Source: Erythrobacteraceae bacterium
GTDB taxonomy: Bacteria > Pseudomonadota > Alphaproteobacteria > Sphingomonadales > Sphingomonadaceae
Length of the DNA stretch: 64,000 nucleotides
Direction of reading: 5' to 3'
Assembly: GCA_027486035.1 (NCBI GenBank)
Contig: JAIXPX010000021.1
Span: forward strand, 1-64,000
The notes under the pieces were generated by a model, which did not search any database, had not been told where the DNA came from, and was given only the letters and a program-made list of their open reading frames with translations. This document shows, one piece after another, positions 1,650-63,166 of this stretch. Both the position numbers and the translations under genes were made by a program. Each line of letters begins with the position of its first letter. Position 1 is the stretch's first letter.

Positions 1650-3178
1650 GTGCCCACCGCCTCCGACGCCTTGCGCGCCGCTTCGTTGAGGGCCGCATAC
1701 TTTTTGCGGAACTTGGGCCGGTCGACGGGGAGGTCTTCCCACACGCCTGCGGCATGTTCGGTACCCACACCCTCGAAGAAATCGCGCATCGCATCGAAGC
1801 GCGCCTTGTTGCCCATCGCCGCGTTGATCACCGTGGCGAGGCTGCCTGCCCCTGCCGGGCCCATCAGCGGCCGCGCGGAGATGAGATTGGTGAAATAGAG
1901 CGCCGGGATCGCCTTGGCCTTGGCGTGCTGCACCACCGGGGTGGTGCCGATGGCGAGATCGGGGCGGTATTCGTCGACCGCGGCAATGTCCTGTTCGAGA
2001 CTGGCGCGGAAGTGCACATCGACCCCGCGCGCCTCGAGCCATTCGCGGTCGGCATCCGACCACTTCGTACGCGGGCAGGCCGAGCCGACATAGCGCACAT
2101 CGGCGCCGCTTTCGACCAGTAGGCGGGCGACTAGCAGCTCCGAGCCCTCATAGCCCGAAACCGTGATGCGACCCTTGATCGGCATCTTGGCGAGCGCGCC
2201 GCGGCAGGCGCCGATCATCGCGTTCTTGACCCCGTCCACCTTGTCCTGCGGCAGGCCGAGCGTGTCACCCAGGGCTTGCAGCCAGGCCGCAGTCCCGTCA
2301 GCGCCGACGGGCGCGGAGCCGATGACCGGGCGACCGGCGTGTTCGAACTCGCGGATCGAGGCGGTGTAGAAGGGGTGGATCGCGGCGACCACAGCGCAAT
2401 CGAGCGCGGCGTAGAGCTCGCGCCATTCGCGGGTCGGCACGACCGGACCGGCAGCAAGACCGAGGGGCGCAAGCATCTGGCCGATCACGACCGGATCGGC
2501 CGGGAACATCTCGCCGAGCAGAGCGACGCTCGGGCGGTCGGAGCGTTCGCGCGGCGCGGCGACGGGGCCTGCCATCACTTCCTCGCGGGCATATTGCAGC
2601 ATCGCGCCGGCCAGCACGTCCTTGGCCTCGGCATGGGTCGGGATGCCGAAGCCCGGCACGTCGATGCCGATAATCCGCACCCCGTTGATCGCCTTGCCCA
2701 GCAGGCGCAGCGGCACGCCGCTGGCGGTGGGCACGCACAGGTTGGTGACCACGATCGCGTCGTAATTCTCGGGGTCGGCGAGGTTCTCGACCGCTTCCTT
2801 GATGTCCTCGAACAGCTTGCCGGTGACCAGCGTTTCCGAGGAGAAGGGCACATAGCCCACCGTCCGCCGCGCGCCGTAGAAGTGCGAGGTGAAGGTCAGG
2901 CCATAGACGCAGCAGGCCGAGCCCGAGAGCACGGTCGCGGTGCGCCGCATTCTCAGGCCCACCCTCAGCGACCCGAACGCGGGGCACATGGACTGGGGCT
3001 GGTCATGGGGGCCAACCGGATAGTCGGCCGCATATTGATCGAGGATGTCGCTCTTGCCGGCGGCGCGGGCGGCCTCGTTCATGGTGTCCTTCGAGGCGCA
3101 GCCGCCCTCCACCGGGGCCGAGCCAAGCTCGATCCGGTCAGGGGCGCGTGCCGCGTCAAAGGCGCCGTGCTCGCTCAT
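1646..3178 (-). CDS. bchY: Chlorophyllide a reductase subunit Y
   Basis: BchY pairs with BchZ to form the heterotetrameric NifDK-like component of chlorophyllide a reductase. The 510-residue product contains the N-terminal cysteines expected to help hold the iron-sulfur cluster (MCPAFG around residue 64 and SACC about 24 residues later). The start at 3178 overlaps the bchX stop by four bases, and the 3' end overlaps the bchZ start by four bases. An upstream extension to 3385 is open but reads through bchX out of frame, so it is rejected. It is expected to be cytoplasmic and oxygen-sensitive, like other nitrogenase-like enzymes. Confidence 0.96.
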
Positions 3179-4164
3179 GCCTCGTCGTAGACCACTTCGA
3201 GGCTGGGGCGGGTCTCGAACACCCCGCCGCGCATGTCGGCCTGGGTGGCGGGAACGAGCTCGACATTGCCGCCAACCACATCGGCGCTGAACAGGCCGAG
3301 CAGGGCGTCCTGGTCGAGCGGATTGGGGCGCAGCGGCGGCGCTTCGGCGACGTTGAGCGCGAGTTCCTCGAACAGGCTCGCCCATTCACCGCCGGGATGG
3401 CCGATGATCTGGTAATTGGCGCTCTTGCGGCGGATATCCTCGTTGGCGGGGATGGCGGTGAGCACCGGAATACCGACAGCCTCGGCGAAGGCCTTGGCCT
3501 CTCCGGTCCCGTCGTCCTTGTTGACGATCATGCCCGCAACGCCGACATTGCCACCCATCTTGCGGAAATACTCGACCGCGTGACACACGTTGTTGGCGAC
3601 ATAGAGCGATTGCAGGTCGTTCGAGCCGACCACGATCACCTTCTGGCACATGTCGCGCGCGATCGGCAGGCCGAAGCCGCCGCACACCACGTCGCCGAGG
3701 AAATCGAGCAGGACGTAATCGAAGCCCCAGTCGTGGAAGCCGAGCTTCTCGAGCGTCTCGAAGCCGTGGATGATCCCGCGCCCGCCGCAGCCGCGCCCGA
3801 CCTCGGGACCGCCGAGCTCCATGGCGAAGACCCCGTCGCGCTGGAAGCACACGTCCTCGATGCGCACCTCCTCGCCGGCGAGTTTCTTTTTCGAAGAGGT
3901 CTCGATGATCGAGGGGGTCGCCTTGCCGCCGAACAGCAGGCTCGTGGTATCCGACTTGGGGTCGCAGCCGATCAGCAGCACGCGCTTGCCCTGCTGGGCC
4001 ATCATGTAGCTGAGGTTGGCAAGCGCGAAGCTCTTGCCCGAACCGCCCTTGCCGTAGATGGCGATGATCTGGGTCTCGCTCTTGACCTCGCCGGTGTGCA
4101 CCGGATCGGGTTCGTGCGAGGCTTCCTCGCGCAGGGCGGCAGTCTGGGTGTCGAGTACGGACAT
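3175..4164 (-). CDS. bchX: Chlorophyllide a reductase iron protein subunit X
   Basis: BchX is the NifH/BchL-like ATP-dependent reductase that passes electrons to BchYZ. The 329-residue protein has the P-loop YGKGGSGKS at residues 37-45, the GCDPKSDTT switch region at 66-74, and two cysteines (Cys126 in GRGCGGRG and Cys161 in VVCGGFG). Their spacing of 35 residues matches the intersubunit 4Fe-4S ligands of this family. Its ATG overlaps the bchC stop by one base. The ATG at 4164 is preferred because longer versions run into bchC. Confidence 0.97.
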   Translation of the reverse strand: MSVLDTQTAALREEASHEPDPVHTGEVKSETQIIAIYGKGGSGKSFALANLSYMMAQQGKRVLLIGCDPKSDTTSLLFGGKATPSIIETSSKKKLAGEEVRIEDVCFQRDGVFAMELGGPEVGRGCGGRGIIHGFETLEKLGFHDWGFDYVLLDFLGDVVCGGFGLPIARDMCQKVIVVGSNDLQSLYVANNVCHAVEYFRKMGGNVGVAGMIVNKDDGTGEAKAFAEAVGIPVLTAIPANEDIRRKSANYQIIGHPGGEWASLFEELALNVAEAPPLRPNPLDQDALLGLFSADVVGGNVELVPATQADMRGGVFETRPSLEVVYDEA

Positions 4165-56306: not shown

Positions 56307-56515
56307 TGGACGTCAAGCCCCTGCTGAACCGGACCGATTGCTGGCGTAATGACAACAATCCACCCACAAGCGGTCGCTAACGCGGGTTGCCATTTACGCC
56401 GCAAGCGGACATCCGGCACGGCCTTTGCCGCAAGTCCCGCCGCCGCAAAGGCAATTGCTGTTTTGGCCTCGCGCTTTATACGCGTCCCGATGAACCCGCT
56501 GCGCGTATTGCCTGC

Positions 56516-57304
56516 ATGACCCGCGAGCATTTCGCCCTCCCGCAGCGTGGCGCGCAAGGCGCCATCGGTCTTGCGCTGGCCGTGGCGATTGCCGGGAGCT
56601 GGCTGGGGATCCACGCCTACGGCATGTTCGTTTTCGAACTGACGTGGTCGAACTGGCCTTTCGCGCTGGCGTTGGCGATGGTGCAGTGCTGGCTTTCGGT
56701 CGGGGTGTTCATCGTCTGCCACGATGCCATGCACGGGACGCTGGTGCCGGGCCACGCGCGCCTCAACGGCGCCATCGGGACGGTGTTGCTGGCGCTTTAT
56801 GCGGGCTTTGCCTGGAAGCATCTGCGTGATGCGCATTTCGATCATCACAAGCTGGCCGGCCGTCCGGGCGACCCCGATTTCGACGAGCACAATCCGGCGG
56901 ATTTCTGGCGCTGGTATGCGACCTTCTTCCGGCGCTATTTCGGCTGGCGTTCGATCCTGTTCGTCCACACCGTGGTCGGGGTCTACTGGCTGGTGCTGGA
57001 GATCCCGATGGTGCAGATCGTGCTGCTCTACGGGCTGCCCGCGCTCGCATCTTCGCTCCAGCTGTTCTATTTCGGCACCTTCCGCACGCACCGTCACATC
57101 GCCGGCGAACCTGCGAACGGCTTTGCCGATTACCACAACGCCCGCTCGGAAGATTTCGGCACGCTTGCCAGCCTCGCCACGTGCTTCCATTTCGGCTATC
57201 ATCTCGAACACCATCGGCGTCCCGACGTACCGTGGTGGGCGCTCCCGGGCGCACGCCGGGCCGGGGTGGGCCGCGTTGAAATGACCGAAAAGGTGCCCGC
57301 ATGA
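56516..57304 (+). CDS. crtW: Beta-carotene ketolase
   Basis: A 262-residue membrane di-iron oxygenase that adds 4-keto groups to beta-ionone rings. All three His boxes are present: HDAMHG, HFDHHKLAGRPGDPDFD and HLEHHRRPDVPWW. The ATG at 56516 gives the family N-terminus. It overlaps crtZ by four bases. Together they can convert beta-carotene to astaxanthin-type ketocarotenoids, given crtY elsewhere. Confidence 0.92.
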   Translation: MTREHFALPQRGAQGAIGLALAVAIAGSWLGIHAYGMFVFELTWSNWPFALALAMVQCWLSVGVFIVCHDAMHGTLVPGHARLNGAIGTVLLALYAGFAWKHLRDAHFDHHKLAGRPGDPDFDEHNPADFWRWYATFFRRYFGWRSILFVHTVVGVYWLVLEIPMVQIVLLYGLPALASSLQLFYFGTFRTHRHIAGEPANGFADYHNARSEDFGTLASLATCFHFGYHLEHHRRPDVPWWALPGARRAGVGRVEMTEKVPA

Positions 57305-57837
57305 GCTGGCTCGAGATATTCCTGACCGTCATGTCCTCGCTGATCGGGATGGAGCTGTTTGCGTGGTATGCGCACAGGTACATCATGCACGGCTGGGGCT
57401 GGGGCTGGCACCGCGACCACCACGAGCCGCACGACAACGTGCTGGAGAAGAACGATCTGTTCGCTGTGGTGTTCGGTACGATCAACGCCGCGATGTATAT
57501 CTACGGCTCGCTCTACTGGGACTGGCTCTGGTGGTTTGCGGTCGGCATCACGCTCTACGGGATTATCTACACGCTGGTGCATGACGGGCTGGTGCATCAG
57601 CGTTATTTCCGCTGGGTGCCGCGCAAGGGCTACGCCAAGCGGCTGGTGCAGGCGCACAAGCTCCACCATGCGACCATCGGGAAAGAGGGCGGGGTGAGCT
57701 TCGGCTTTGTCTTCGCGCGCGATCCGGCCAAGCTGAAGGCCGAATTGAAGGCCCAGAAGGAAGCGGGGCTGGCCGTGGTGCGCGATTCGGTCGGCGCCGG
57801 GGGCGAGAGTTTCGAGGTCGTCGGCCGCAATCTCTAG
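57301..57837 (+). CDS. crtZ: Beta-carotene hydroxylase
   Basis: A 178-residue CrtZ that hydroxylates C3 of beta-ionone rings. His clusters: HRYIMHGWGWGWHRDHHEPH, HDGLVHQRYFRWVPRKGY and HKLHHA. Four membrane segments are visible. The ATG overlaps the crtW stop, so expression is coupled. The C-terminus is slightly extended (residues 150-178) relative to the core. Confidence 0.93.
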   Translation: MSWLEIFLTVMSSLIGMELFAWYAHRYIMHGWGWGWHRDHHEPHDNVLEKNDLFAVVFGTINAAMYIYGSLYWDWLWWFAVGITLYGIIYTLVHDGLVHQRYFRWVPRKGYAKRLVQAHKLHHATIGKEGGVSFGFVFARDPAKLKAELKAQKEAGLAVVRDSVGAGGESFEVVGRNL

Positions 57838-57876
57838 GCCGGGCGCAGGTCGCTTTCGGCCGGCTCCAGATCGGTT

Positions 57877-57917
57877 CAGACCCCCTCCAGACCCCCTCCA
57901 GACCCCCCTCCAGACCC
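57877..57917 (+). repeat. Short tandem repeat, unit CAGACCCCCTC
   Basis: Three and a half tandem units of 11-12 bases (11, 11, 12, then partial) in the crtZ-sufE gap, ending 13 bases before the parS site. Confidence 0.75.
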
Positions 57918-57930
57918 GTCTTGCCGGCAC

Positions 57931-57946
57931 TGTTTCACGTGAAACA
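57931..57946. promoter_or_regulatory. parS centromere site between crtZ and sufE
   Basis: A perfect TGTTTCACGTGAAACA palindrome, identical to the site in virB6. It lies in the intergenic gap five bases from the sufE stop. Confidence 0.9.
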
Positions 57947-57951
57947 AGGGC

Positions 57952-58362
57952 TTAGCCCGCGGCAATCCGCGCAGCATGGTCCTTGACCAGCGCGATCATG
58001 TTCGGGACCCCCTGGGTCCGGTTGCTGGAGAGCTGGTTCTTGAGGTCGAAGGGGGCAAGCGCCGCCATCACGTCCATCTGCGCGACCTCGGCAGCGGGCC
58101 TGTCCTGCACTGCGGCGATGACGAGGGCGACGATCCCCTTGGTGATCGCGGCATTGCTGTCGGCGAGGAAGTGGAGGCGCTGCACCTCCGTGCCCGCAGG
58201 GTAGACCCATACAGAAGCCGAGCATCCGCGCACCAGCGTGGCATCGGTCTTGAGGGCCTCGGGCATGGGCTCGAGGCTGCGGCCAAGCTCGATGAGGAGG
58301 CCGTAACGCTCGTCGCCTTCGAGGAATTCATATTCTTCGAGAATGTCGGAAAGTGTGCGCAT
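57952..58362 (-). CDS. sufE: SufE-family sulfur acceptor protein
   Basis: A 136-residue SufE that accepts persulfide from SufS for iron-sulfur cluster assembly. The catalytic Cys is in LVRGCSASVWVYP; ILEEYEFLEGDERYGLLIEL and the C-terminal LSSNRTQGVPNMIALVKDHA are family features. Confidence 0.93.
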   Translation of the reverse strand: MRTLSDILEEYEFLEGDERYGLLIELGRSLEPMPEALKTDATLVRGCSASVWVYPAGTEVQRLHFLADSNAAITKGIVALVIAAVQDRPAAEVAQMDVMAALAPFDLKNQLSSNRTQGVPNMIALVKDHAARIAAG

Positions 58363-58405
58363 GGCCCGCCCTTAAAGCGGGCGGGGCGCCAACGCAAAGG
58401 GGGCG

Positions 58406-58585
58406 TCAGCCTGTCAGACCCCCGGGGCGAGTGACCGCGTGCCAGGCGACATAGAGCCAGCCGAGGAAGCCGTGAAGGATCGCCCAGAGGATCGACTTGT
58501 GGATGCTCCAGCTGATCGCCACGGCGATCGCGCTGCCCAGGCCGATGCCGGTCTGCGCGGCAGTGGAGCGGACCGTGGCGCTCAC
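58406..58585 (-). CDS. Small membrane protein ending the psp operon
   Basis: A 59-residue protein from GTG at 58585, overlapping the stop of the preceding gene as GTGA. One or two hydrophobic stretches (GIGLGSAIAVAISWSIHKSI, LWAILHGFLGWLYVAWHAV). Proteins of this look are common and uncharacterised. It lacks the coiled-coil tail of the preceding five. Confidence 0.72.
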   Translation of the reverse strand: MSATVRSTAAQTGIGLGSAIAVAISWSIHKSILWAILHGFLGWLYVAWHAVTRPGGLTG

Positions 58586-58830
58586 AGTTCGACCCCGCTG
58601 GCGATGGCTTCAAGCTTGCGGATTCTTTCTTTGAGATCAGCCAGTTCGATGCGTGCGGTGCCGAGGTCAGAGCCGTCCTCGCTGCCCGCGCGGGGGTGGG
58701 CGCGATCCAGCTCCTGGCGCTTGAAGTCGAGCCATCCGGTCCAGGCGCGCAGCAGGGCGCCGGCGACCACCAACAGGCCGATCAGGCTGGCAATGGTGAG
58801 AACCAGAGTGGTATCAAGAAGGGGCGTCAT
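58582..58830 (-). CDS. PspB-like paralogue 5 (membrane helix plus coiled coil)
   Basis: An 82-residue protein: N-terminal membrane segment (TLVLTIASLIGLLVVAGALL), charged linker and a short coiled coil ending LADLKERIRKLEAIASGVEL. The tail matches the R(L/I)xxLExI pattern shared by the upstream neighbours and by PspB, but stops before the EIEALR part. Coupled by four-base overlaps on both sides. Confidence 0.78.
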   Translation of the reverse strand: MTPLLDTTLVLTIASLIGLLVVAGALLRAWTGWLDFKRQELDRAHPRAGSEDGSDLGTARIELADLKERIRKLEAIASGVEL

Positions 58831-59141
58831 AATTCGCTCTGTTCCTTCCGTGGTGCGGGCAGATCCCGCAAGGCTTCGATCTCGGCAGCGATCCGCGCCT
58901 GTTCTCGCGCATCGGCGGAGTTTCCGTCGGTGGCAATCCGTTCGAGGACCTTGACCCGTTCGCGCAGGTCATTGAGTTCGCGCCGTGCCGCTTCAAGTTC
59001 GGCTGCGCTGCGCCCGTCCTCGCGCGGGGCGATTTTCTCGTTGCCGTGTTCGTCGACGACGATCCCGGCACGCGCCCGGACGGTCTCGACGATCCCCCAA
59101 ATCACGATCGCTACCAGCGCGACGATGGCCCAGCTGCTCAT
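58827..59141 (-). CDS. PspB-like paralogue 4
   Basis: A 104-residue protein with a membrane helix (MSSWAIVALVAIVIWGIVET), a linker, then coiled coil LNDLRERVKVLERIATDG and the second motif IAAEIEALRD. The ATG overlaps the previous stop by four bases. The signature VLERIATD...EIEALR is shared by paralogues 1-4. Confidence 0.8.
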   Translation of the reverse strand: MSSWAIVALVAIVIWGIVETVRARAGIVVDEHGNEKIAPREDGRSAAELEAARRELNDLRERVKVLERIATDGNSADAREQARIAAEIEALRDLPAPRKEQSEL

Positions 59142-59422
59142 GATGCCGCGCGCTCCTTCGCGGAGGAGATGCGCAGCGCCTCGATCTCGTCGGCGAGCAG
59201 GCTGCCGCGGTCGGTGGCGATGCGTTCGAGCACGCGCAGCCGGTCCTCGATCATCTGCTGGCGCTCGAGCACTTCGCGCAGTTCCGGGCCCCGGCCGCCG
59301 GCCTTGCCCTCGTAGCGCAGCCGCTTGCCGTCGATCACCTTGCCGACAATTGCGTTGATGGTCATGCCGATGACGATCGCCATGGCGATGAGCGTGAACG
59401 CGATGATGGCTGCCTCGGGCAT
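59138..59422 (-). CDS. PspB-like paralogue 3
   Basis: A 94-residue protein with a membrane helix (AIIAFTLIAMAIVIGMTINA), basic linker, coiled coil QMIEDRLRVLERIATDRG and LADEIEALRISS. It starts one base into the preceding stop codon. Confidence 0.8.
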   Translation of the reverse strand: MPEAAIIAFTLIAMAIVIGMTINAIVGKVIDGKRLRYEGKAGGRGPELREVLERQQMIEDRLRVLERIATDRGSLLADEIEALRISSAKERAAS

Positions 59423-59781
59423 CAGGCCACTCCCTTGTCCTTGAGGCCATCGAGCGCCCGGTCACGCAGGGCATCGATCTCGGCACCGAGGTGGTAGCCG
59501 CCGTCGGTGACGATCCGTTCGACGTTGGCGAGCCGGTCCTTCATCGAGCCCAGTTCGGCGCGCAGTTCGGCATTCTCCTGGGTGAGCAGGGTGACGCGGT
59601 GCGCGGTTTCCTTGTCCGAGCCGGGCTTCAGGGACTGGCCCCACATGCCTTCGAGCGGGTAGCCGTTCTTGATCTTCATGCGGGTGGTCTGGAACGAGAC
59701 CAGAATGCCCATCGCGCCCAGCACGAAACCGCCGCCGATCATCCAGCCGAGATAGGGGAGAAAATCTTCCGGGCCCATCAC
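59422..59781 (-). CDS. PspB-like paralogue 2
   Basis: A 119-residue protein with a membrane helix (LGWMIGGGFVLGAMGILVSF), linker, and coiled coil ELGSMKDRLANVERIVTDGG then LGAEIDALRD. Four-base overlap with the upstream gene. Same two-part tail signature. Confidence 0.8.
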   Translation of the reverse strand: MMGPEDFLPYLGWMIGGGFVLGAMGILVSFQTTRMKIKNGYPLEGMWGQSLKPGSDKETAHRVTLLTQENAELRAELGSMKDRLANVERIVTDGGYHLGAEIDALRDRALDGLKDKGVA

Positions 59782-60098
59782 ACGCGTTCCTTTCTCTCGA
59801 GGCCGAGCGGCACGCCCGCGCCGCCGAGGTCATTGGCATCCACCCGCCGCGTGTCGCGCAGCGCCTCGATCTGGGTGGCGATATCGTAGCCGCGGTCGGT
59901 GACGATGCGTTCGAGCACCTGCACCCGGTCTTCGAGGCGCTGGATCTGGCCGACATATTGCGCGGCCTTTTCGGCGGTCTGCTCGGCGGTGGCACCCACC
60001 TGCATCTCGGCCATTTTCTGCTGGTGCTTGGTCCACAGGGCGATCACCGGGATCATCAGCGCGATGATCGGGATCATGAGCGCGAGGTAGGCTTCCAT
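59778..60098 (-). CDS. PspB-like paralogue 1
   Basis: A 106-residue protein with a membrane helix (YLALMIPIIALMIPVIALWT), a Gln/Ala-rich helix, coiled coil IQRLEDRVQVLERIVTDRG and IATQIEALRD. It starts 33 bp after pspC. Confidence 0.8.
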   Translation of the reverse strand: MEAYLALMIPIIALMIPVIALWTKHQQKMAEMQVGATAEQTAEKAAQYVGQIQRLEDRVQVLERIVTDRGYDIATQIEALRDTRRVDANDLGGAGVPLGLERKERV

Positions 60099-60131
60099 CT
60101 TGTCAGTCCCTTCTGGCAGAGTGGCGTCAGT

Positions 60132-60506
60132 TCAGCGCAGCCGCTCGATCTCGGCGGTCAGGCGCGGGTTGCTGCTGACATAGTGGGCCTCGACGGCGGC
60201 AAGACGCCGGTCGATGTCGCGGAAGCTCGCCTTGATCTCGCGCGCGGTGCGGCGCGGGCTCTGGCGCACGCCCTGCCAGTACTTCTGCTCGCTCGCGTCG
60301 CGGTAGAGATGCGGCGGCTTCTTGTTGAGCACGAAGCCGGCAACGAAGTAGGCGAGGATCGGCCAGCCGAGCGAGAGGCTGAGCACGAGGGTGGCGAGAC
60401 GCACCCACAGCACATTGACCCCGGTGTAATCGGCGATTCCCGAGCAGACACCCATCAGCTTGGCATTGTGCTTGTCGCGGTAGAGCGTGGTGCGGGGGCT
60501 GTTCAT
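60132..60506 (-). CDS. pspC: Phage shock protein C
   Basis: A 124-residue PspC: N-terminal KLMGVCSGIADYTGVNVLWV and a membrane segment (LGWPILAYFVAGFVL), the PspC domain, then a cytoplasmic tail FRDIDRRLAAVEAHYVSSN and LTAEIERLR. That tail repeats the VE...EIExLR layout of the downstream paralogues. PspC senses membrane stress together with PspB. Confidence 0.92.
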   Translation of the reverse strand: MNSPRTTLYRDKHNAKLMGVCSGIADYTGVNVLWVRLATLVLSLSLGWPILAYFVAGFVLNKKPPHLYRDASEQKYWQGVRQSPRRTAREIKASFRDIDRRLAAVEAHYVSSNPRLTAEIERLR

Positions 60507-60808
60507 GCGCGGGTGCCTTTCTTCTCGGCGATCAGCTGCTCAAGTTCACGCAGCTGCTGGTTGTCCTTTTCATGGTCGGCGATCAGGCGGCGGGCGGGGG
60601 TGAACTCCGGATCGTCCGAAGCGACCAGTCGCTCGACCGTGTCCATCCGCTCGTCCAGTCGCTTGGCAAGGTTGTAGAGCTCTTCGAGGAGCACCTCGTC
60701 ATCGGCAGTAATGGTGGGCGCGGTTTTCCACTTGGTCATGTAGTGCAGCACCAGCCAGGGCAGGCCGATGAGAACCACGGCCATTCCGAAAACAAAGTCG
60801 AAATCCAT
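60503..60808 (-). CDS. pspB: Phage shock protein B
   Basis: A 101-residue PspB: membrane helix (VFGMAVVLIGLPWLVLHYMT) and coiled coil LAKRLDERMDTVERLVASDD followed by an extended charged tail. It is longer than enterobacterial PspB (about 75). It follows pspA by three bases and overlaps pspC by four. Confidence 0.9.
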   Translation of the reverse strand: MDFDFVFGMAVVLIGLPWLVLHYMTKWKTAPTITADDEVLLEELYNLAKRLDERMDTVERLVASDDPEFTPARRLIADHEKDNQQLRELEQLIAEKKGTRA

Positions 60809-60811
60809 GGC

Positions 60812-61510
60812 TTATTCCCCTTTGATATCTTTGGCGCTGTCGCTGGCCTTGCCGAGCGCCTTCTTCATGGCAGCCAGTTCGTCGTCGATCGCGTCTGATC
60901 CGGCGAGCGCCGCGATTTCATCGGCGAGCGACGGCGGGCCGTCCTCGGCGATGCGCAGCGCGTCGGCGCGGCCCTCGGCATAATCGACCCGGCGTTCGAG
61001 CTGGTCGAAGCGGGCGAGGGCCTCGTCGGTGCGCTCGGTGCTCATCAGGGTGCGCAGCTTGACGCGGTTCTCGGCGCTTTCGAGACGCGCGGCGATCGCG
61101 GTCTGGCGGCTGCGGGCCTCGCGCAGACGGTGCTGGAGCTTGGCGATGTCCTCCTCGTAGGCGCGCAGGGCATCGTCGAGCACAGTGATTTCCGCTTTCA
61201 ACTGGTCGGCCATGTCGCCGGCCTTCTTCTTCTCGACCAGCGCGGCGCGGGCGAGGTCCTCGCGGTCCTTGCTGAGGGCGAGCTGCGCCTTCTCGGCCCA
61301 GTCGGCCTGGAGCCGGTCGAGCTTCACGCAGTGCCGGTGCATCTCCTTCTGGTCGGCGATGGTGCGCGCGGCGCTCGCGCGGACCTCGACCAGCGTCTCC
61401 TCCATCTCGAGGATGATCATGCGGATCATCTTGGCGGGGTCATCCGCCTTGTCGAGCATGTCGTTGAAGTTCGCCGCGATGATATCGCGGGTGCGGCTGA
61501 AAATGCCCAT
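60812..61510 (-). CDS. pspA: Phage shock protein A
   Basis: A 232-residue PspA/IM30 (ESCRT-III fold) peripheral membrane protein that stabilises damaged membranes and inhibits PspF. It has the amphipathic N-terminus GIFSRTRDIIAANFNDML and long helices (MIRMIILEMEETLVEVRASA, ARSRQTAIAARLESAENR). The ATG at 61510 has its own GGAG site. The frame stays open without a stop to a GTG at 61789 (next entry). Confidence 0.94.
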   Translation of the reverse strand: MGIFSRTRDIIAANFNDMLDKADDPAKMIRMIILEMEETLVEVRASAARTIADQKEMHRHCVKLDRLQADWAEKAQLALSKDREDLARAALVEKKKAGDMADQLKAEITVLDDALRAYEEDIAKLQHRLREARSRQTAIAARLESAENRVKLRTLMSTERTDEALARFDQLERRVDYAEGRADALRIAEDGPPSLADEIAALAGSDAIDDELAAMKKALGKASDSAKDIKGE

Positions 61511-61789
61511 GAAGGCTACTCCATCGAGAAACGAATTGACCCGGTCCCGCGGAGCGACTCGGTCGCCCTGCGGGTCCTCGGGGGTGCGCCGTGACTGTGC
61601 CGGGTCGGGGCGGCGACGCAAGGCCTCGATTTCCTCGTCGAGGCGCGACAGCCGGCCTGCCGACAGCAGGCGCGAGGGTTGGGCCGGAGCGTCGCTGCTC
61701 TGACGGGCGCGCGTGGGCCTGGCGCCATCGGCAGCTTCGGCGGGGGGGACATTACGCTCCGGCCCGAGGGGGTCAAACGGGTCGCCCAC
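61511..61789 (-). CDS. Open in-frame extension upstream of pspA
   Basis: From GTG at 61789, one base after the stop of the preceding gene, 93 codons run in frame into pspA with no stop. The deduced segment is Pro/Arg-rich but contains RLSRLDEEIEALRRRPDP, the same EIEALR motif as the psp paralogues. Either pspA is made in a longer form (325 residues) or this is a separate leader read through in frame. The coordinates mark only the extension. Confidence 0.4.
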
Positions 61790-61790
61790 G

Positions 61791-61976
61791 TCAGGCGATC
61801 TCGATCATTGCGCCGCTGGTCGCGGCGGGGTGGGCGATCAGGGCGGCGGTGGCCGCGCCCGGCTGGATCTGCGAGGACAGCAGCACCATCATCGACATCG
61901 CAGCGATGCTGGCGATGGCGGCGTGTCCGAGCTTGGAGCTCCAGAAGCCGGCTTTGGTGGCAGAGCGGTCGATCAT
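61791..61976 (-). CDS. Small membrane protein, first gene of the psp operon
   Basis: A 61-residue protein with basic N-terminus (MIDRSATKAGFWSSKLGH) and a hydrophobic segment (AAIASIAAMSMMVLLSSQIQ), then Ala-rich tail. It is the first gene after the sigma-54 promoter. No family recognised; in position it resembles small Psp-linked membrane peptides, without evidence of homology. Confidence 0.72.
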   Translation of the reverse strand: MIDRSATKAGFWSSKLGHAAIASIAAMSMMVLLSSQIQPGAATAALIAHPAATSGAMIEIA

Positions 61977-62015
61977 TGTGGCCTCCCGGGCGTTTCGTGG
62001 TCTTGCCGGATATTC

Positions 62016-62031
62016 TGCAACCGCCGTGCCA
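62016..62031 (-). promoter_or_regulatory. Sigma-54 promoter of the psp operon
   Basis: On the minus strand TGGCACGGCGGTTGCA matches the -24/-12 consensus TGGCAC-N5-TTGCA exactly. It lies 40 bp upstream of the first psp gene and points leftward. Confidence 0.88.
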
Positions 62032-62084
62032 AACTTGAAGAATGGCGGAATTCGGGGTTTTTTCTGCACCCGAAGGTGTGGCGC

Positions 62085-62103
62085 CTTGGCATCTATTGCC
62101 AAG
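62085..62103. promoter_or_regulatory. Candidate PspF upstream activator site
   Basis: A perfect inverted repeat CTTGGCA-TCTAT-TGCCAAG, about 80-100 bp upstream of the expected psp transcription start, the usual distance for a sigma-54 activator site. It also overlaps the -35 of the pspF promoter, so PspF could repress its own gene. Confidence 0.65.
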
Positions 62104-62125
62104 CATTGGGGATTTTCACTATAGT
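62097..62125 (+). promoter_or_regulatory. Sigma-70-type promoter of pspF
   Basis: TTGCCA, a 17-base spacer and TATAGT. The -10 ends six bases before the pspF ATG, so the transcript would begin at or near the start codon, suggesting leaderless translation. Confidence 0.5.
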
Positions 62126-62131
62126 TTGGAC

Positions 62132-63166
<1,035 letters not shown>

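Follow-up and report, generated by a model that had tools for sequence, protein, structure and literature searches.

We examined a 64,000-nucleotide stretch of contig JAIXPX010000021.1 from an Erythrobacteraceae bacterium (hereafter, the window) and found that its psp operon is extended, after pspA, pspB, and pspC, by an array of five small genes encoding predicted single-pass membrane proteins with a recurring C-terminal tail. Such gene series are fixed in the psp operon and conserved across the family, as tailed open reading frames (ORFs) directly followed pspC in all 137 psp loci read in three sets, with one to eight genes per locus. Because the tail profiles resemble PspC and, to a degree that varies with the query direction, PspB, and the curated cut-offs are not reached, we call the array proteins PspB/PspC-tail paralogs and not PspB. 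We see roughly even chances that they serve the Psp membrane-stress response as paralogous adaptor subunits, which would form a mixed coiled-coil platform docking PspA.

The operon runs on the minus strand from 61976 to 58406 and contains, in order, a 61-amino acid hydrophobic ORF, pspA, pspB, pspC, five genes with a single transmembrane (TM) helix, and a 59-amino acid hydrophobic gene. pspB (60503 to 60808) and pspC (60132 to 60506) overlap by 4 bases and were identified by TIGR02976 (80.7 bits; cut-off, 51.7) and TIGR02978 (125.6 bits; cut-off, 104), respectively; the C-terminal tail of PspC ends in EIERLR. The first-pass annotation of this DNA had reported five small genes downstream, each with one N-terminal TM helix and, in the first four, a full tail. 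Both this description and the coordinates hold: a gap of 33 bases separates pspC from the first array gene, neighbors within the array overlap by 1 to 4 bases, and the fifth protein carries half a tail, with the topology being a prediction. All five genes lie on the minus strand. Gene 1 (P0004, type alpha; 59778 to 60098) and gene 3 (P0006, type delta; 59138 to 59422) encode a TM helix and a tail. Gene 2 (P0005, type gamma; 59422 to 59778, with a possible alternative GTG start at 59781) adds the linker NGYPLEGMWGQ between the two, and gene 4 (P0007, type zeta; 58827 to 59141) has an insert splitting the two halves of its tail. The full tail of P0004 to P0007 comprises about 30 C-terminal residues (LxxRVxVLERIxTD...EIEALR), namely, an amphipathic helix (LxxRVxVLERIxTD) followed by a second, short one (EIxxLR). 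Gene 5 (P0008, type P8; 58582 to 58830) combines a TM helix with the first tail half alone (DLKERIRKLEAIASGVEL) and ends in KLEAIASGVEL.

We compared these proteins across a genus set of 21 loci, consisting of the window and all 20 relatives with a PspB match (25 genomes of the GTDB genus were searched, its own included). Hydropathy together with a positive-inside count predicted one N-terminal TM helix, with more lysine and arginine after than before it, in 125 of 125 proteins from nine groups: PspB (21 proteins), the seven tailed types, and P8. When their profiles were aligned locally with one another, the seven tailed types scored 31.1 to 141.5 (median, 63.6), as compared to at most 20.3 when one profile was reversed, and the coiled-coil control, PspA, reached at most 10% probability against the tail profiles. 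Since the scores between types exceed the reversed controls and the PspA control is low, the tails are one family and not generic coiled coils. Within one genome, paralogs shared a tail identity of 0.58 (128 pairs) and an identity of 0.22 over the remainder of the protein (0.19 after block shuffling); the corresponding ortholog values were 0.85 and 0.56. The tails have thus not been homogenised, with each type keeping its own version. Nonsynonymous change (pN) was below synonymous change (pS) in 36 of 36 nonindependent pairs of nine genomes for all seven stretches compared, which were the PspA extension described below, the PspA core, alpha, gamma, zeta, P8, and P9, the 59-amino acid protein (delta was left out). 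The P8 profile matched that of zeta at 89% over the first tail half, a pair that has no reversed control. A search of solved structures with the alpha profile gave no PspB-like relative among the best 60 of 90 matches; the hits to long coiled coils in unrelated viral proteins (best E value, 0.007) were taken as an effect of composition.

Next, we related the tails to PspB and PspC. The alpha protein P0004 scored 31.2 bits with TIGR02976 (E = 2e-7; cut-off, 51.7), 21.8 bits with Pfam PspB (cut-off, 25.6), and 18.6 bits with the PspC model TIGR02978. P0005 to P0008 gave no PspB match at E ≤ 1, none of P0004 to P0008 matched the PspC membrane domain PF04024, and the curated cut-offs of PspB and PspC were exceeded by no array protein of the window. 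What matched the PspC model did so weakly and within its C-terminal half. We also compared profiles in local mode against broad PspB and PspC sets, with reversed profiles as controls. With the array type as the query, PspB was matched at 81% by alpha, 87% by beta, 77% by zeta, 57% by gamma, 51% by delta, 44% by epsilon, 22% by eta, and 0.9% by P8, and the reversed controls gave 0.2 to 1.8% (alpha, 1.8; beta, 0.6). The end of PspC matched the whole tail of beta (93%; reversed, 4.4), epsilon (93%; 4.8), zeta (67%; 6.9), alpha (40%; 1.6), and eta (21%; 0.5). With PspC as the query, the values were 85% for beta, 92% for epsilon, 73% for zeta, 44% for alpha, 43% for eta, 93% for gamma, and 95% for delta. 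P8 matched neither PspB nor PspC (PspC, 0.1%). The first-pass annotation had proposed serial duplication of a PspB-type tail; the duplication is supported, but the label PspB-type does not suffice on its own, as the tail end resembles the C terminus of PspC and not PspB. The hetero-oligomeric sensor that it also suggested stays a hypothesis.

We then examined how widely the arrays occur. A search with the alpha model found a match in 179 of 199 genomes of the family, 7 of 289 genomes of the class (four in the family and three with one weak match), and 26 of 299 genomes of the phylum. Because the alpha model can touch PspB itself, we read the loci directly. Tailed ORFs were present in 21 of 21 loci of the genus set (two to six genes), in all 77 named loci with pspC (two to seven), and in 39 of 39 loci spread over the family (one to eight). 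The 80 named loci were fetched with an array query, so presence there is by selection, and their genomes overlap with the genus set; the family-spread loci comprise 20 from listed matches and 19 chosen by eye among the weakest-scoring genomes. PspC (TIGR02978) was detected in 186 of the 199 family genomes, and 12 of the 13 genomes lacking it also lacked an array match, the sole array match without PspC being in a 66% complete genome. Eight family genomes had PspC without an alpha match. Three of these (L216, L217, and L219) carry one tailed ORF each, and two stretches (L220 and L221) are cut short by contig ends. Neither generic coiled-coil tails nor absence from the psp loci of all close relatives, the two outcomes that the first-pass annotation had held against its own proposal, was found.

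The array types keep a defined order. Following the gene chain past pspC by script, we collected 118 small proteins from the 21 genus loci, of which 86 are tailed, 21 are P8, and 11 are P9. The tailed proteins divide into alpha (21), gamma (19), zeta (18), beta (8), delta (8), epsilon (5), eta (4), and three unclassed. Along the operon, the types follow one another as alpha, beta, gamma, delta, epsilon, zeta or eta, and P8. In counts that pool every locus, with species repeated between sets, alpha preceded zeta 141:0, gamma preceded zeta 112:0, and zeta preceded P8 126:0. The front of the array is looser (alpha before gamma, 116:20; alpha before beta, 62:18), and some loci (L173 and L174) have extra alpha-like copies. 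As the types keep their places and such extra copies occur, the order fits old duplications followed by repeated loss, together with recent tandem copies.

Relatives of the tailed proteins were also found outside the family. Among other families of the order, 1 of 12 loci (L051) has a tailed gene. At positions 3096 to 3790 of this locus, two PspC-like genes in tandem precede the single tailed gene, an arrangement that looks like a simpler array. A further 15 stretches from 11 genomes of other families (L199 to L213) contain one or two TM-plus-tail ORFs each; one of these genomes is from the same class and ten are from other classes of the phylum, and we assume that most are Gammaproteobacteria. 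Six proteins of these stretches and the L051 protein were scanned, and all remained below the PspB cut-off, with a best score of 40.7 bits. Within the phylum sample, PspC exceeded its cut-off in 12 of 13 nonfamily genomes with a match, as compared to 27 of 286 nonfamily genomes overall. The 12 genomes carry PspC on another contig or at least 78 kilobases away, and the thirteenth, 87% complete, has a weak match. The Fisher P value for this association is 4e-13; its real weight is smaller because the 12 genomes represent five families (f153, f180, f193, f215, and f216).

PspA itself has a conserved N-terminal extension in this clade. Canonical pspA (60812 to 61510, minus strand; TIGR02977, 276.9 bits; cut-off, 242.95) encodes a full PspA inside a longer frame that is open in the window, and the long form (60812 to 61789) adds an in-frame extension at 61511 to 61789 that can start at GTG 61789. 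In all 20 genus loci that include DNA upstream, the pspA frame continues without a stop far to the 5' side of the usual MGIFS start; for L033, no start codon was seen for the full piece. Because GGAG lies shortly before the usual start codon, long and short PspA are both possible. The extension begins with an NPLGPER-like sequence, and its best-conserved inner stretch is RLDxEIEALRxxP (alignment A5, with 18 of the 20 extensions; L031 and L033 were left out). Its pN/pS was 0.55, as compared to 0.08 for the PspA core. A relaxed motif, [EQ][IV][EDKN]xL[RK], occurs in 87 of 91 extensions from genus and named loci, and a longer form in 80 of 91. This comparison was made after the likeness had been noticed; the background, taken from flanking ORFs no shorter than 250 amino acids and including spurious frames, was 14 occurrences in 193,330 residues, and because the loci are related, the fair figure is that of a single event, roughly 0.007 per 90 residues. 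When array types served as queries, the extension profile was matched by epsilon (83%), beta (71%), delta (60%), zeta (52%), gamma (20%), eta (12%), and alpha (3%); PspC gave 50%, and PspB and P8 gave less than 1%. Reversed controls were at most 0.6%, and 9% for PspC. AlphaFold modeling (predicted template modeling score, pTM, 0.45) placed a helix at residues 49 to 59, with a mean pLDDT (predicted local distance difference test) of 68 over residues 51 to 60 and low-confidence surroundings. The EIxxLR stretch of the extension is thus predicted to be a short helix inside disordered sequence. The strict motif is present in 80 of 142 pspA frames, some others having variants such as SRIEEEVERLR, and we found no such motif in the frames of the more distant genera listed among L180 to L184, L186 to L192, and L226 to L242. 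At the opposite end of PspA, the C terminus (residues 287 to 297 of the long form, SLADEIAALAG) resembles the delta tail LLADEIEALR, with a weak profile score (10%).

How could these parts work together? According to the consulted parts of the published work, the cytoplasmic C-terminal domain of Yersinia PspC binds PspA in the on state, which frees PspF (PMC5596341), and a putative zipper of Escherichia coli PspC (residues 77 to 98) is required for interaction with PspA (PMC3068692). The binding, sensing, and docking steps of the following account are ones that we infer, starting from the observed tail homology, gene order, operon linkage, and joint absence with PspC. Each array protein would be anchored in the inner membrane through a TM helix of its own (predicted N-out, C-in) and would present a PspB/PspC-kind tail to the cytoplasm. 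These tails may join the PspC-PspA and PspB-PspC contacts and so build a mixed coiled-coil platform holding PspA at the membrane, with each TM helix and linker possibly suited to a membrane state or partner of its own. As a tethered peptide, the EIxxLR helix of the PspA extension could insert into this bundle as well. Because the array multiplies a PspC/PspB-kind tail on different anchors, we regard a mixed docking platform as the most economical reading. More tentatively, and with the odds in our estimate against it, the EIxxLR-ended tail might be a shared Psp docking code, of which PspA in Erythrobacteraceae-type bacteria would carry a copy on its disordered N-terminal arm. PspA, PspC, and up to eight membrane subunits would then join through interchangeable helices into a mixed bundle and compose a combinatorial receptor for a protein resembling ESCRT-III, and the unlinked tail proteins in other families of the phylum would be overlooked subunits of the Psp systems there.

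Several observations weigh against the docking platform. The PspB profile values depend on direction: with PspB as the query, they were 53% for alpha, 14% for beta, 13% for zeta, 26% for gamma, 34% for delta, 21% for epsilon, 4.6% for eta, and 1.1% for P8. The PspC end matched gamma at 92% and delta at 94%, but the reversed controls reached 73 and 43%, so both pairs are unsafe. AlphaFold returned a single, uninformative helix for alpha (pTM, 0.30). Three psp-positive family genomes (L214, L215, and L218) have no tailed gene within about 1.5 kilobases past pspC; a P8-like ORF is still present in L214 and L218. As the array model can touch PspB, the co-occurrence table of the 199 family genomes (both, 178; PspC only, 8; array only, 1; neither, 12; Fisher P = 3e-13, uncorrected for phylogeny) partly mirrors loss of the whole psp operon, PspB included. 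The nonfamily tailed relatives sit outside the psp operon, as stretches L199 to L213 contain no recognizable pspA, pspB, or pspC. Since the extension motif was not seen in many distant family loci with arrays, the extension is not needed for arrays generally. Last, two topologies have been proposed for E. coli PspC, and the standard one has a periplasmic C terminus (PMC3068692; consulted in part).

Three other explanations deserve consideration. We think it unlikely, although worth serious attention, that the array proteins are threshold tuners, with tails serving as decoys for the PspB-PspC contact or for PspA and thereby setting the stress needed to free PspF; co-induction would give feedback, and copy number would alter sensitivity without adding inputs. 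The silencing of the Yersinia response by PspB-PspC cytoplasmic contacts, as given in the title of a reference cited in PMC5596341, speaks for this possibility, as do the location of the array genes in one gene series after pspC and a copy number ranging from 1 to 8. However, the types are old and ordered and have a tail and linker of their own (ortholog tails, 0.85; paralogs, 0.58), which is beyond what decoys need. Quite improbable, in our judgment, is a role as passengers of the regulon, in which the array proteins would be small membrane effectors of the PspD or PspG kind that act on other envelope partners, use the tail for assembly among themselves, and owe only stress control to their psp linkage. 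Their strongly divergent TM and linker parts would agree with such a role, and so would the unlinked relatives away from psp, of which L201, whose neighbors were listed, lies between unrelated genes; yet 12 of the 13 genomes with unlinked relatives are PspC-positive, and the tail matches both PspB and PspC. Generic coiled coils, or near-neutral tandem duplication with a PspB/PspC likeness born of composition, are very improbable: the high reversed PspC-gamma and PspC-delta controls, for which we keep caution, and the direction-dependent PspB scores favor them, but the low type-type and PspB reversed controls and the failure of PspA to match largely refute them, and pN below pS in every tested pair and the conserved order argue the same way. 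As further support for the docking platform, we considered the E. coli PspB leucine zipper and dropped it, as the mutated residues L10, L15, and L18 lie near the membrane and do not map onto the tail.

The remaining features of the locus concern its control and its borders. The divergent sigma-54 activator gene pspF lies on the plus strand (TIGR02974, 476.8 bits; cut-off, 443.55). Its frame is open from 62042, and we set its start at 62132 (62132 to 63166) because the family match begins just after this position, at residue 38 of the open frame, and candidate promoter sites lie before it. These are a palindrome, TTGGCA-N5-TGCCAA (62086 to 62102), which by sequence match is a candidate upstream site for PspF, and a sigma-54 promoter-like box on the minus strand, TGGCACG-N4-TTGCA (62016 to 62031). 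The palindrome is the single exact match in the 64 kilobases (0.12 expected with at most one mismatch), and the box is the sole match of the window, with zero mismatches (0.67 expected with at most one). Of the 20 genus loci that include DNA upstream, 16 have a box of a looser sigma-54 pattern 459 to 587 bases before the usual pspA start; in other families of the order, 11 of 12 loci have one within 900 bases upstream. A terminator scan of 57800 to 62200 gave five sites, none of them on the minus (coding) strand. On the basis of the promoter-like box and gene spacing, PspA, PspB, PspC, and the array are probably encoded by a single transcript controlled by sigma-54 and PspF.

At the operon head, between the sigma-54 box and long pspA, lies the 61-amino acid hydrophobic ORF (61791 to 61976, minus strand), whose stop codon adjoins the start of the pspA extension. 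It had no Pfam match at E ≤ 0.01, and among the 20 genus loci that include DNA upstream, a narrow motif found a counterpart in 11. At the other end, the tailless 59-amino acid hydrophobic protein P9 (58406 to 58585, minus strand) is the last before sufE (SufE Pfam match, 112 bits), which follows it directly. P9 is present in 11 of 21 genus loci; both counts come from narrow rules and are lower bounds. It was matched in 2 of 100 phylum genomes, one being its own, and a distant genome (L245) has a 46%-identical relative. Among named records, array gene 1 is best matched in Erythrobacter and Porphyrobacter (E. donghaensis, 88%; further, E. colymbi and E. tepidarius), so that by relationship the window comes from an Erythrobacter-type alphaproteobacterium of the Sphingomonadales. 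Beside the psp locus, at 56387 to 57837 on the plus strand, adjacent genes resemble a fatty acid desaturase and a fatty acid hydroxylase; presumably, they encode a carotenoid ketolase and hydroxylase.

The arrays bear on the question of how membrane damage is sensed by PspB and PspC and how these recruit PspA, a bacterial relative of ESCRT-III. They offer a natural series of putative receptors with a constant tail and varied membrane parts, which would let the sensing part be told from the docking part, and the tail family predicts overlooked Psp partners elsewhere. If the docking platform is correct, it suggests a switch for membrane repair that takes many plugs and not a single one, for which PspA seems to carry a matching piece.

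Compared to PspB (PF06667/TIGR02976), the array proteins have in common a single N-terminal TM helix, a predicted C-in topology, an amphipathic LxxRxxxLERI helix, and the operon. They differ in staying below the cut-offs, occurring in several copies downstream of pspC, and having an additional EIxxLR end that PspB lacks. With PspC (PF04024/TIGR02978), they share a C-terminal tail past the membrane part that ends in E-I-x-x-L-R; unlike PspC, they have no PspC domain and one TM helix. The first-pass annotation had held that PspB and PspC each occur once in known Psp systems and that this one was a candidate for an undescribed system. The former is contradicted and the latter is too strong, as, in the portions consulted, PspB duplicates in psp operons (example, AOL22920.1; Ravi et al. 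2024, PMC11237479) and paralogs of PspC and PspA (PMC9239133) are already reported. The PspB duplicates, likewise extra PspB-like genes of psp operons, are probably in part the same phenomenon; the mention consists of one sentence, without array, types, order, PspC tail sharing, or PspA extension. The same source describes PspC fused to a divergent C-terminal PspB, which also places PspB-type parts on other membrane proteins, but by fusion there and in separate genes here. Beyond the first-pass annotation, we observed the PspA extension with EIxxLR, the copy number of one to eight, and unlinked relatives in other families. Within the literature covered, from which subscription papers were mostly missing, neither the array types nor the tail common to them, PspB, and PspC was described, and the same holds for the PspA extension and for the relatives not linked to psp. 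A parallel to the extension comes from yeast, where, in the part of PMC12358876 that we consulted, ESCRT-III proteins have amphipathic N-terminal extensions that are membrane anchors. Both are N-terminal additions before an ESCRT-III core; in contrast to the yeast extensions, the PspA arm is mostly disordered in the prediction and carries a tail-like helix before the usual PspA start.

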